This document shows positions 18,914-63,927 of a stretch of DNA of 64,000 nt, in pieces. This DNA comes from Salinisphaeraceae bacterium (GTDB lineage Bacteria > Pseudomonadota > Gammaproteobacteria > Nevskiales > Salinisphaeraceae). The stretch's first letter is position 1; each line of letters begins with the position of its first letter. The stretch spans positions 1 to 64,000 of the forward strand of contig NYTH01000027.1 of NCBI GenBank assembly GCA_002683405.1. Direction: 5' to 3'. Below the pieces are notes generated by a model, which was not told the DNA's origin, made no database searches, and saw nothing but the letters and a program-made list of their open reading frames with translations. The position numbers were made by a program, and so were the translations under genes.

Positions 18914-18980
18914 GAGAACCGCGCTGAAGTCAAATCGGGCGGCACCGTTTAACGGCATCAGGTCCTTTGGATGAAAAAAG

Positions 18981-19620
18981 CCACAGAGGCACAGAGGCAC
19001 AGAGAAAAGAACCTGGAACCACAAAGACACCAAGAGCACAAAGATGAAGATCAGATTGTCTTCCCTTTGTGTGCCTTGTGCCCTCTGTGGTTGAGTTTCA
19101 TGCCTTGCTCTCTGTGGCTCTGCGCCTCTGTGGCTCTTGAATAAGAAAAACCACAAGGGCACGGAGGCACGGAGAAAAGAAGGTTTGAACCCACAAAGAC
19201 ACCAGGGGCACGAGGATGAAGATCGAGGTATCTCCCCTTTGTGTGCTTTGTGCCTTTGTGGTTAGGTATTTCTTGGCTCTTGGCGTTTGGGTTTCGCGGC
19301 GGCCTGACCAGGCCGGAAAGCCACAACGGCACAGAGGCACGGAGAAAAGAGTAAAACCACAAAGACACCAAGAGCACAAAGGTGAAGATCAGATTGTTTT
19401 ACCTCGGTGTGCTTTGTGCCCTTTGTGGTTGAGTTTTTTACCTTGCTCTCTGCGGCTCTGCGTCTCTGTGGCTCTTGAATAAGAAAAACCACAGAGACAC
19501 GGAGGCACGGAGAAAAGAAGGTTTGAACCACGACGACACGAAGGGCACAAAAGCCGAAGATCACAATGTCTTCCCTTTGTGTGCTTTGTGCCCTTTGTGG
19601 TTAAGCATTTTTTGCTGTGT
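18981..19620. repeat. four tandem copies of a nested palindromic repeat
   Basis: The 783-bp gap between the converging apaH and MMPL genes holds no credible gene. It carries four related units starting at 18981, 19151, 19321 and 19489. Each has an outer left arm built on CCACAGAGGCACAGAGGCAC and a poly-A/G stretch. An inner arm on ACCACAAAGACACCAAGAGC follows, then the inner arm's reverse complement (CTTTGTG... CTGTGG). Units 1 and 3 also have an outer right arm (ending near 19138 and 19476). In unit 1 the inner arms are 19017-19043 and 19065-19092, and the outer arms about 18981-19009 and 19104-19133. Units 2 and 4 have decayed right arms. All reading frames over it are repeat artefacts. Confidence 0.85.
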
Positions 19621-61750: not shown

Positions 61751-61826
<76 letters not shown>

Positions 61827-61870
61827 AAAATCGCTTTTCGAGCCTGACCCTGCCCGAAAAAAGGTGGCGG

Positions 61871-61899
61871 ATAATACCACATTAAAGCGGCGTTGCCAG
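61871..61899 (-). promoter_or_regulatory. promoter of the tRNA-Trp-secE-nusG transcript
   Basis: On the minus strand CTGGCA (61894-61899) is followed after 17 bp by TATTAT (61871-61876). It lies between the terminator after tRNA-Thr and the tRNA-Trp gene, about 45 bp from the mature tRNA start. Confidence 0.65.
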
Positions 61900-61918
61900 T
61901 CCGGCCTCGCCTGCAAAG

Positions 61919-61950
61919 AAAAAGGGAGCAAGACCCGAGGGCTTGCTCCC
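61919..61950 (-). terminator. terminator after tRNA-Thr
   Basis: GGGAGCAAG at 61924-61932 pairs perfectly with 61942-61950 around a 9-nt loop. In the minus direction five T follow (61919-61923). It begins seven bases past the encoded CCA of tRNA-Thr. Confidence 0.87.
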
Positions 61951-61956
61951 CGTATT

Positions 61957-62031
<75 letters not shown>

Positions 62032-62077
62032 GGGAATATCGTCTGAATTCAGCGGGCCAGCAGCCCGGCGGCGCGTA

Positions 62078-62106
62078 ACTTTACGTGCGGCTGCAAAACG
62101 GGTCAA
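62078..62106 (-). promoter_or_regulatory. tRNA-Thr promoter
   Basis: TTGACC (62101-62106) is followed after 17 bp by TAAAGT (62078-62083), then a GC-rich discriminator TACGCGCCG, on the minus strand. Transcription would start about 40 bp before the tRNA. It overlaps the space directly after the wecG-like stop codon. Confidence 0.7.
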
Positions 62107-62125
62107 GAAAAAGCACCGCCCGTGC

Positions 62126-62911
62126 CTAGTTACAACCGGAAAACCGCCTGCGGACCGCCCACAGCAGCAGGCCCAGGGTGAACGGGATATCGTCCACGAG
62201 GTAGCGCCGCCACAGCCGGGCGGGTTCGGTGGCCAGACGATGCAGCCATTCGAGCCCGATCACCTGGAGCCACCGGGGGGCCCGCGAAGCCCGGCCCGCA
62301 ATAAAGCTGAACGAGAATCCGACCCCCAGCCAGGCCCGACCGGGAAAGGACGGCATCAGCTTCGCGATCAGCTTTTCCTGCTTGGGGCAGCCCAGGCCGA
62401 CAAATACCAGGCGGGCATCGCTTTCGCGAATGACGTTCTCCACGGCCTGGCTGGCGGCCGCATCCTGCTCGAAGCCAAAGGGTGGACAGTGCGTAGTGAC
62501 ATTCAGCCCGGGATATCGCCGAGCAAGCAGCGCCGCCGCTTCATCGGCCGCGCCCGGCTCGCCGCCCAGGAACAGAACGGGAACGCCCGAGCGCGCAGCG
62601 GCGTCCGCCAGCGGCTCGACCAGGTCGGAACCGCACACGCGTTCCGGTAGCGGCTCGCCCGCCAGCTTGCTGGCCCAAACCAGCGGCATGCCGTCGGCCA
62701 CCCGCAACGTCGCGGGCCGGGTCAGAGTCACGAAGGACTGGTCCAGCACCAGTCGACGCAGGATATCCACATTGACGGTGACCACCCAGCAATCCTGCTG
62801 CGCCTGCACCGCACCCATGACCTGACCAACCGTTTCGCTACGCGTGAGCGCATCGATATCACAGCCCCTGAGCGTCAGAGTATCGGGACGCATTGAAAGA
62901 ACACTCTCCAT
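62126..62911 (-). CDS. WecG/TagA/CpsF-family glycosyltransferase
   Basis: The product is about 261 aa. The family blocks VADGMPLVWASKLAGEPLPE with the key Asp, VLFLGGEPGAADEAA, VFVGLGCPKQEKLIA and WLGVGFSFSFIAGRASRAPR, then GLEWLHRLATEPARLWRRYL at the C-terminus, are all present. Members transfer N-acetylmannosamine or a related sugar to lipid-linked precursors of surface polymers. It is not surrounded by other polysaccharide genes: it stands alone between tRNA-Gly and tRNA-Thr. The start is uncertain. ATG 62911 gives the family length, ATG 62893 is possible, and the open frame extends to 63136 through unconserved sequence that runs into the tRNA-Gly fragments. Confidence 0.88.
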   Translation of the reverse strand: MESVLSMRPDTLTLRGCDIDALTRSETVGQVMGAVQAQQDCWVVTVNVDILRRLVLDQSFVTLTRPATLRVADGMPLVWASKLAGEPLPERVCGSDLVEPLADAAARSGVPVLFLGGEPGAADEAAALLARRYPGLNVTTHCPPFGFEQDAAASQAVENVIRESDARLVFVGLGCPKQEKLIAKLMPSFPGRAWLGVGFSFSFIAGRASRAPRWLQVIGLEWLHRLATEPARLWRRYLVDDIPFTLGLLLWAVRRRFSGCN

Positions 62912-63071
62912 CGGGTCGCCAAACGAGGGCCAGAGATTGTCGACAAACCGGAGCTCAGGCAAGTGGCCTCTGTATTTTCCACCAGCCCGCAGCGGTCGTA
63001 GAACTAGAGGCATGGGCTCCAGCCCTTGCGGCAGAGACCGGCAACCGGAACGGATGTGAAAAAGGCGCGAT

Positions 63072-63149
63072 GGGCGATGGGAATCGGCGGCAGCGCAGCG
63101 AGTCCGGAGGATTCGGCCCAGGGACGGGCCGAACAACCCACATCATCAG
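63072..63149 (-). pseudogene. interrupted 3' fragment of a second tRNA-Gly
   Basis: Two 15-nt pieces identical to the intact tRNA-Gly T-arm region occur in order, gggcgatgggaatcg at 63072-63086 and aacccacatcatcag at 63135-63149. A 48-bp insertion separates them. The insertion contains a perfect 8-bp hairpin (TTCGGCCC at 63112-63119 with 63126-63133). The copy lacks the anticodon arm and 5' half and cannot be functional. Confidence 0.7.
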
Positions 63150-63193
63150 GCGGCGCGAAGCGGCGCTGAAAACGGCGATTCGGGGATGGAGGT

Positions 63194-63267
<74 letters not shown>

Positions 63268-63337
63268 TTGTTCATAACCTCGAACTGACTCTGCTCGCTC
63301 GGGCCTTCCTGCCCTCACTAAATTCTAACGCCTTCCG

Positions 63338-63357
63338 GCCCGCCATCCATGGCGGGC
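63338..63357. repeat. perfect palindrome in the tRNA-Gly upstream region
   Basis: GCCCGCCAT at 63338-63346 and its exact complement at 63349-63357 are separated by two bases. It lies in the 516-bp gene-free gap between tRNA-Gly and tRNA-Tyr, which otherwise holds a tRNA fragment and the 59-bp repeat array. Confidence 0.6.
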
Positions 63358-63398
63358 GCTCAGCGGGGCCGAGCTGTGCTCGTCCTTATCCGCTTCGC

Positions 63399-63416
63399 CC
63401 ATTGAACTACGCCCGC
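63399..63416 (-). pseudogene. 5' fragment of a tRNA-Gly copy
   Basis: These 18 bases are identical to the first 18 bases of the intact tRNA-Gly (complement of 63250-63267: acceptor strand plus start of the D-arm), 149 bp upstream of it. Nothing tRNA-like follows, so this is a truncated remnant of a duplication. Confidence 0.75.
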
Positions 63417-63502
63417 GCAACAGCAACCCTAATACAAAGCGAGATAATCTCGCTACGGCACAATGCCGAATATCGCGAAAAACGCTGAAAGGGGAAGCAC
63501 GC

Positions 63503-63747
63503 GACTGCTCCGCTCCGGCGTTATGCCTGGGAGTATGAAAACTCTTGCAGGAGGGATTTCCCGTCTCTTCGCTCCGGCGTTCCGCCTGAGAGTACGAAAA
63601 CTCTTGCAGGAGGGATTTCCCGCCTCTTCGCTCCGGCGTTCCGCCTGAGAGTATGAAAACTCTTGCAGGAGGAATTTTCCGCTTCTTCGCCCCGGCGTTC
63701 CGCCTGAGAGTATTAATACTCTTGCAGGAGGAATTTCCCGCCTGGTT
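63503..63747 (-). repeat. 59-bp tandem direct repeats downstream of tRNA-Tyr
   Basis: The segment ACTCTTGCAGG recurs at 63541, 63600, 63659 and 63718, a period of exactly 59 bp. Four copies abut without spacers, the outermost one at about 63503 being degenerate. Each junction can fold into a 9-bp stem (CCTGAGAGT with ACTCT..CAGG, two bulged bases) with a 6-nt loop. In the copy nearest the tRNA the loop ATTAAT is itself palindromic. As 59 is not a multiple of three and frames shift, the array is not coding. It would be part of the tRNA-Tyr precursor transcript. Confidence 0.9.
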
Positions 63748-63783
63748 CTCCCCGTTCCCAAATTAAATTCGGTGGGCGGGAAA

Positions 63784-63868
<85 letters not shown>

Positions 63869-63898: not shown

Positions 63899-63927
63899 AT
63901 TCTTCGTAAACACCCCCTGAATGTCAA
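63899..63927 (-). promoter_or_regulatory. tRNA-Tyr promoter
   Basis: On the minus strand a perfect TTGACA (63922-63927) is followed after 17 bp by AAGAAT (63899-63904) and a GC-rich discriminator ACGCGCC. Transcription would start about 25 bp before the tRNA. Confidence 0.7.

Follow-up and report, generated by a model that had tools for sequence, protein, structure and literature searches.

What is the tandem array that follows the tRNA-Tyr gene of this Salinisphaeraceae bacterium, and is it a relative of RtT (Rfam RF00391), the family of the 178-bp repeats in the E. coli tyrT operon? The window analysed here is a 64,000-nucleotide stretch of a draft assembly of 3.72 Mb in 58 contigs (99% complete), in which arrays may be collapsed. 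The initial annotation described a strict 59-bp tandem array with a conserved small hairpin at each junction and suggested an independent case of repeat-derived RNA from a tyrosine tRNA operon. The array itself is confirmed: TRF reports it at 63511-63743 with a period of 59, 3.9 copies, 91% matches, 0% indels and a score of 382, second in the window only to a 172-bp array, and a separate repeat search gave spacings of 59, 59 and 59. Since tRNA-Tyr(GTA) lies at 63784-63868 on the minus strand, the array is on the same strand and spans 41-273 nt past the CCA. The features of the locus, in the direction of transcription, are as follows.

63899-63927, minus strand: putative sigma-70-like promoter of tRNA-Tyr, TTGACA-17-AAGAAT (10/12 in a consensus scan)
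63784-63868, minus strand: tRNA-Tyr(GTA), CCA encoded (ARAGORN; Rfam RF00005, 58.8 bits)
63776-63783, minus strand: post-CCA stem, arm 1, TTTCCCGC, beginning at base +1 after CCA
63734-63741, minus strand: post-CCA stem, arm 2, GCGGGAAA, in the first repeat copy (112/112 cells paired over 14 elements)
63683-63741, minus strand: repeat unit 1, with the core GCGGGAAATTCCTCCTGCA at its 5' end
63699-63732, minus strand: second hairpin of unit 1, TCCTCCTG...CAGGCGGA around AGAGTATTAATACTCT (predicted; four copies without covariation)
63624-63682, minus strand: repeat unit 2
63565-63623, minus strand: repeat unit 3
63506-63564, minus strand: repeat unit 4, with its 3' end decaying
63438-63454, minus strand: weak terminator-like hairpin past the array (the scan found 5 such sites, with 3.2 expected by chance)

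The scan found no intrinsic-terminator-like site between tRNA-Tyr and the array, in agreement with the earlier reading of a single likely transcript; the first such site, at 63454-63438, lies beyond the array. Nor did it find a G+C-rich hairpin with a T run inside the array on the minus strand. Farther downstream is tRNA-Gly, and no good promoter-like site was found by scan between the two tRNA genes. A hairpin is indeed predicted in every copy (AGAGU...ACUCU within UCCUCCUG...CAGGCGGA), although it is weaker in the last. The proposal that this hairpin might covary was checked across the four copies and gained no support.

The window shows other features besides the array. The usual gene order is tRNA-Tyr-Gly-Thr-tuf, and it is altered at 61826-63200, with a WecG/TagA-like glycosyltransferase frame (62126-63136, minus strand, recognized by inspection only) between tRNA-Gly and tRNA-Thr. 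The gap between tRNA-Thr and tRNA-Trp is only about 130 bp, so there is no EF-Tu gene there. At 63287-63416 is a repeat of about 110 nt, GGACGAGCAC.GCTCGGCCCCG..., shared with three other loci (L227, L228 and L230, on contigs C39 and C14). It is preceded by a copy of at least the first 16 nt of the tRNA that follows and is found exactly at -149 before tRNA-Gly(TCC), Gly(CCC), Ser(GGA) and Thr(CGT); these partial 5' copies upstream mirror the 3' copies found downstream of other tRNA genes. Downstream of tRNA-Gly(TCC), at 63072-63149, a copy of its T-arm region is interrupted by REP-like sequence about 48 nt long (CTGATGATGTGGGTT ... CGATTCCCATCGCCC), and a likewise split T-arm copy follows Gly(CCC). 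At 18976-19602 the window holds a 172-bp tandem array of 3.7 copies made of CACAGAGG/CTTTGTGG-type sub-repeats.

The array turned out not to be confined to tyrosine. A search of the source genome with the array recovered its core behind tRNA-Leu(CAA) and tRNA-Leu(TAG) as well, and when all 43 tRNA genes located in the assembly were surveyed, the element was seen to adjoin the CCA of Tyr, Leu (TAA, CAG, CAA, TAG), Pro (TGG, CGG, GGG), Val(CAC) and Lys(TTT). Behind Lys(CTT), 25 nt copied from the tRNA-Lys 3' end come first, and then the element. The core, GCSGGAAWTYCCTCC, is thus found, besides Tyr, behind four Leu, three Pro and two Lys genes, Val(CAC) and displaced tRNA-Phe 3' ends. The last of these came from a covariance-model search, which added two elements at 257 kb of contig C28, each behind a tRNA-Phe 3'-end copy identical to the last 30 nt of tRNA-Phe, the full gene being on another contig (C43). 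A tmRNA was considered as the owner of these orphan tails and rejected on account of that identity. The region (L218, C28:255500-257782) may be the scar of an island integrated at tRNA-Phe. A further element, at +555 of Pro(CGG), is likewise displaced together with a copied tRNA 3' end.

Every core match with at most one mismatch (23/23) lies within 900 nt downstream of a tRNA gene and on its strand; zones of this kind amount to 0.5% of the strand-specific genome length. Copy number differs from locus to locus, and so does the length of the tandem unit: 59 bp in Tyr, 60 in Leu-CAA, 81 in Leu-TAG, 124 in Leu-CAG and about 127 bp in Pro, Lys-CTT and Val. The Tyr array is therefore one member of a genome-specific, previously unlabelled family behind about a dozen tRNA genes. 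The view of the array as a peculiarity of a tyrosine tRNA operon gives way, since the same element stands behind about eleven other tRNA loci.

Covariation is found instead in a stem that sits mostly outside the Tyr array and was absent from the initial annotation. Every first element has an 8-bp stem beginning at the first base after CCA, in which NTTCCNGC pairs with GCNGGAAN located about 35-40 nt downstream. Arm 1 is 8-9 nt long (UUUCCCGC and variants) and its complement is GCGGGAAA. Pairing is kept in all 112 cells of the 14 elements compared, with four of the eight pairs changed on both sides (CCCGC/GCGGG, CCGGC/GCCGG, CGCGC/GCGCG and CCCAC/GTGGG). When the partner was slid by 1-3 columns as a control, at most one double-sided cell appeared. 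The covariation was also computed with 11 elements. Few of the changes are independent, as the three Pro loci closely resemble one another. Of 42 tRNAs in the source genome, 12 are followed by a stem of at least 7 bp that starts exactly at +1; a complete sister genome has 1 such case among 46 tRNAs, and the background is about 0.56 per offset. Two of the 12, Asn and Ser(GGA), have unrelated sequence.

The 3' arm is followed immediately by T(T/C)CCTCC (UUCCUCC in RNA) and, in many copies, by a second hairpin. First elements and internal units alike show almost no variation in CCTCC. The long units have a second conserved block, ACGCGGACCGGGAGGAAAACGG, complementary to TTTCCTCC; the Tyr equivalent is TTCCTCCTG with CAGGCGGAA. 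In five of six arrays, conservation over 19-nt windows peaks at the core, which in Lys-CTT scores 0.92 versus 0.73 for the rest of the unit.

Arm 1 is found only behind a tRNA CCA or a copied tRNA 3' end. The other 22 internal units lack it. In 17 of these, 8 nt remain perfectly complementary to the locus's own trailer, as GCCGGAAT in the Pro and Leu-CAG arrays and as GCGGGAAA in those of Lys, Leu and Tyr. Because the internal units keep this locus-specific 3' arm, each copy offers the start of the trailer an additional site to pair with. This much is read from the sequence; the pairing would take place in an RNA.

How far the element extends beyond its source was asked of several collections. 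An exact-pattern search found it in 0 of 60 relatives, and of the 85 genomes of the order scanned with the covariance model, only the source itself has it, the other 84 being without. A model search of a sample of the class gave two marginal matches outside, neither near a tRNA. The exact-pattern scan of contigs from 84,980 species, a collection from which the source-genome records may be missing, gave four matches, none near a tRNA, and viral contigs gave 0. Rfam searches with the array, at gathering and at permissive thresholds (up to E = 10), returned chance matches only. The initial annotation had named absence from close relatives, combined with the lack of an RNA product, as what would speak against its reading; the first half of that pair is what was found, the array being absent in all relatives searched.

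The resemblance to RtT is one of position. Both are tandem arrays that follow tRNA-Tyr directly, on its strand and likely in one transcript. However, the unit is 59 bp here and about 180 bp in RtT, and the units here do not carry the 19-nt copy of the tRNA 3' end found in each RtT unit: no sense match of at least 11 nt to tRNA-Tyr occurs in the 600 nt downstream. The element also stands behind many different tRNAs and opens with the stem that abuts CCA. Searches with the RF00391 covariance model, at its gathering score, found no match in the window or in the source genome, which bears out the earlier statement that the sequence differs from rtT. The claim of independence from rtT was incomplete, however, as genomes of the sister genus score 50-75 bits with RF00391 at the homologous position behind tRNA-Tyr, in units of about 180 bp that each end in AATCCTCCTCCCTCCACCA, the 19 nt with which the tRNA itself ends. 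Given that the source has no RF00391 match and the sister genus has a real RtT, the 59-bp array is not an RtT member, and it fills the same niche. As judged from these comparisons, the Tyr array is a replacement for RtT rather than a representative of it.

Within the order, RF00391 picks up sites behind Gln, Arg and Ser tRNAs too, most of them scoring under its gathering threshold. In the sister genome G010, RtT-type units whose tail is an exact copy of the tRNA 3' end (mostly 19 nt, AATC...CCA) follow Arg, Gln, Tyr and Val tRNAs (loci L136, L137, L138, L151, L159, L140 and L144), and units with an exact 19-nt tail stand behind Ser and Gln tRNAs in the source genome (L057, L080, L082, L064 and L076). 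Tails range from 15 to 22 nt in the Gln and Val units, and the Arg and Ser(TGA) units have, in addition, a 15-16-nt antisense copy of the cognate T arm. On this sequence evidence, RtT looks like a general tRNA-linked element and not an oddity of tyrT.

Other known systems share single traits with the element. PMC2965389, the sole relevant paper found in the literature on tandem repeats behind tRNA genes, reports that rtT resembles BIME. Like REP/BIME sequences, the element is a short, dispersed, hairpin-forming repeat, but it is strictly tRNA-trailing, on one strand only and anchored to CCA. 3'ETS trailer RNAs, such as 3'ETS-leuZ of E. coli, are cut from the 3' trailer of a tRNA precursor, as the RNA considered here putatively would be; 3'ETS-leuZ, however, is a single-copy RNA with sponge activity, not a tandem array, and does not belong to a family common to many tRNAs. 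The CcsR or cuckoo RNAs (CcsR1 is Rfam RF02791, “Conserved CCUCCUCCC motif stress-induced RNA 1”) are likewise built of short hairpin units in tandem, and these share a conserved CCUCCUCC-type motif. They differ in that the element here comes from another lineage, lies behind tRNAs, has no Rfam match and has its motif predicted in stems, not in hairpin loops, in both the Tyr and the long units; the CcsR/cuckoo model is absent among the matches of the array up to E = 10. A resemblance of ACUCUCAGGC to a glycine riboswitch was dropped, as there is no Rfam match. A CsrA sponge was also dropped, since the GGA-bearing loop of the Tyr unit is, by inspection, not kept in the Leu units.

The favoured explanation, to which about an even chance is given, is that the element is a co-transcribed, structured tRNA trailer that functions as RNA, in 3'-end formation or termination, and has been amplified by tandem duplication. 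The transcript after CCA would open with an arm that pairs with GCGGGAAA about 35-40 nt on. This stem might hold the trailer in a hairpin for endonuclease cutting, or the element might form a Rho-type termination zone that does without an intrinsic terminator, or both. Tandem duplication would then supply spare anti-trailer sites, and repeat RNA could be released as a by-product. Older literature describes Rho-dependent termination in the E. coli tyrT repeats.

The fusion to CCA without a spacer, the pair-preserving changes, the kept anti-trailer arms, a C skew and the lack of strict terminators all speak for such a trailer. Strict intrinsic terminators were found within the first 250 nt of 0 of 11 element-bearing tRNAs versus 9 of 32 others, a difference that is not significant alone (p = 0.08). 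The flanks of the element-bearing tRNAs are skewed towards C over G (p = 0.0009), a test with few independent points because the elements are homologous; the Tyr trailer is not C-rich (C/G 0.95). On the other side, strong termination would be costly for an array that lies between tRNA-Tyr and tRNA-Gly with no good promoter-like site in between, and the locus-specific copies of arm 2 may be explained in part by descent through duplication. RNase Z is uninformative on a stem abutting CCA, as none of 41 genomes of the order, source included, passes the NCBIfam cut-off (TIGR02651). A more specific idea is that the tandem “anti-trailer” repeats compete for the one arm after CCA and so set the speed or occurrence of maturation or termination at the Tyr, Leu, Pro, Lys, Phe and Val loci, the element having spread by insertion exactly at the CCA end. 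This version is speculative and considered unlikely.

The main rival removes RNA function altogether. The element would be a mobile or recombinogenic DNA repeat that targets tRNA 3' ends and is multiplied by slippage, its stem being a DNA inverted repeat or recombinase site. In favour of this, the same sequence stands behind unrelated tRNAs, always at +1 after CCA, copies are displaced along with tRNA tails (the 25-nt tail at Lys(CTT), the two Phe copies at C28:257 kb and Pro(CGG) +555), the genome is rich in other tRNA-linked partial copies, and the family is limited to one genome. However, all copies are on the coding strand of the tRNA and none is found elsewhere in the genome, and the pair-preserving substitutions and core conservation favour a constraint on RNA, though a DNA-binding dimer site could also covary. 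This reading is possible but falls well short of even. Slippage with no function at all, leaving neutral debris in a non-coding spacer, would account for the decayed last copies, the locus-to-locus variation in copy number and the absence of the family in relatives; it is very improbable, since the core is conserved above the rest of the unit, the stem covaries and the association with tRNAs is exclusive.

The units might also be cut out as regulatory small RNAs that act in trans through the anti-Shine-Dalgarno-like CCUCCUCC, as CcsR/cuckoo RNAs do, or that work as sponges. The near-invariance of CCTCC is in keeping with this, as are the tandem units of 59-128 nt, and tRNA trailers are known sources of small RNAs, 3'ETS-leuZ and rtT among them. 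Yet the motif is complementary to the block GGAGGAAA within each long unit, and to CGGAA in Tyr, and is thus predicted to be paired, not looped, which makes action in trans through CCUCC less likely. A small-RNA role would also leave the covarying stem at CCA unexplained, and there is no Rfam sRNA match. The proposal is accordingly rated as rather improbable.

The family is known from the sequence of one genome, a draft assembly, from which its transcription with the tRNA genes is inferred. Transfer RNA trailers tend to be regarded as disposable. In this bacterium about a dozen tRNA genes have a structured trailer in common, with its pairing conserved, its start joined exactly to CCA and its tandem copies still carrying the anti-trailer arm. 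Its role is probably to shape the 3' end of tRNA transcripts, as far as sequence can tell. Taken with the RtT copies that stand behind Tyr, Arg, Gln and Ser tRNAs of related species, this family suggests that repeat arrays following tRNA genes recur and turn over quickly, and are not an oddity of E. coli tyrT. Because so many loci can be compared within a single cell, the function of rtT-type arrays, an old question, becomes testable.
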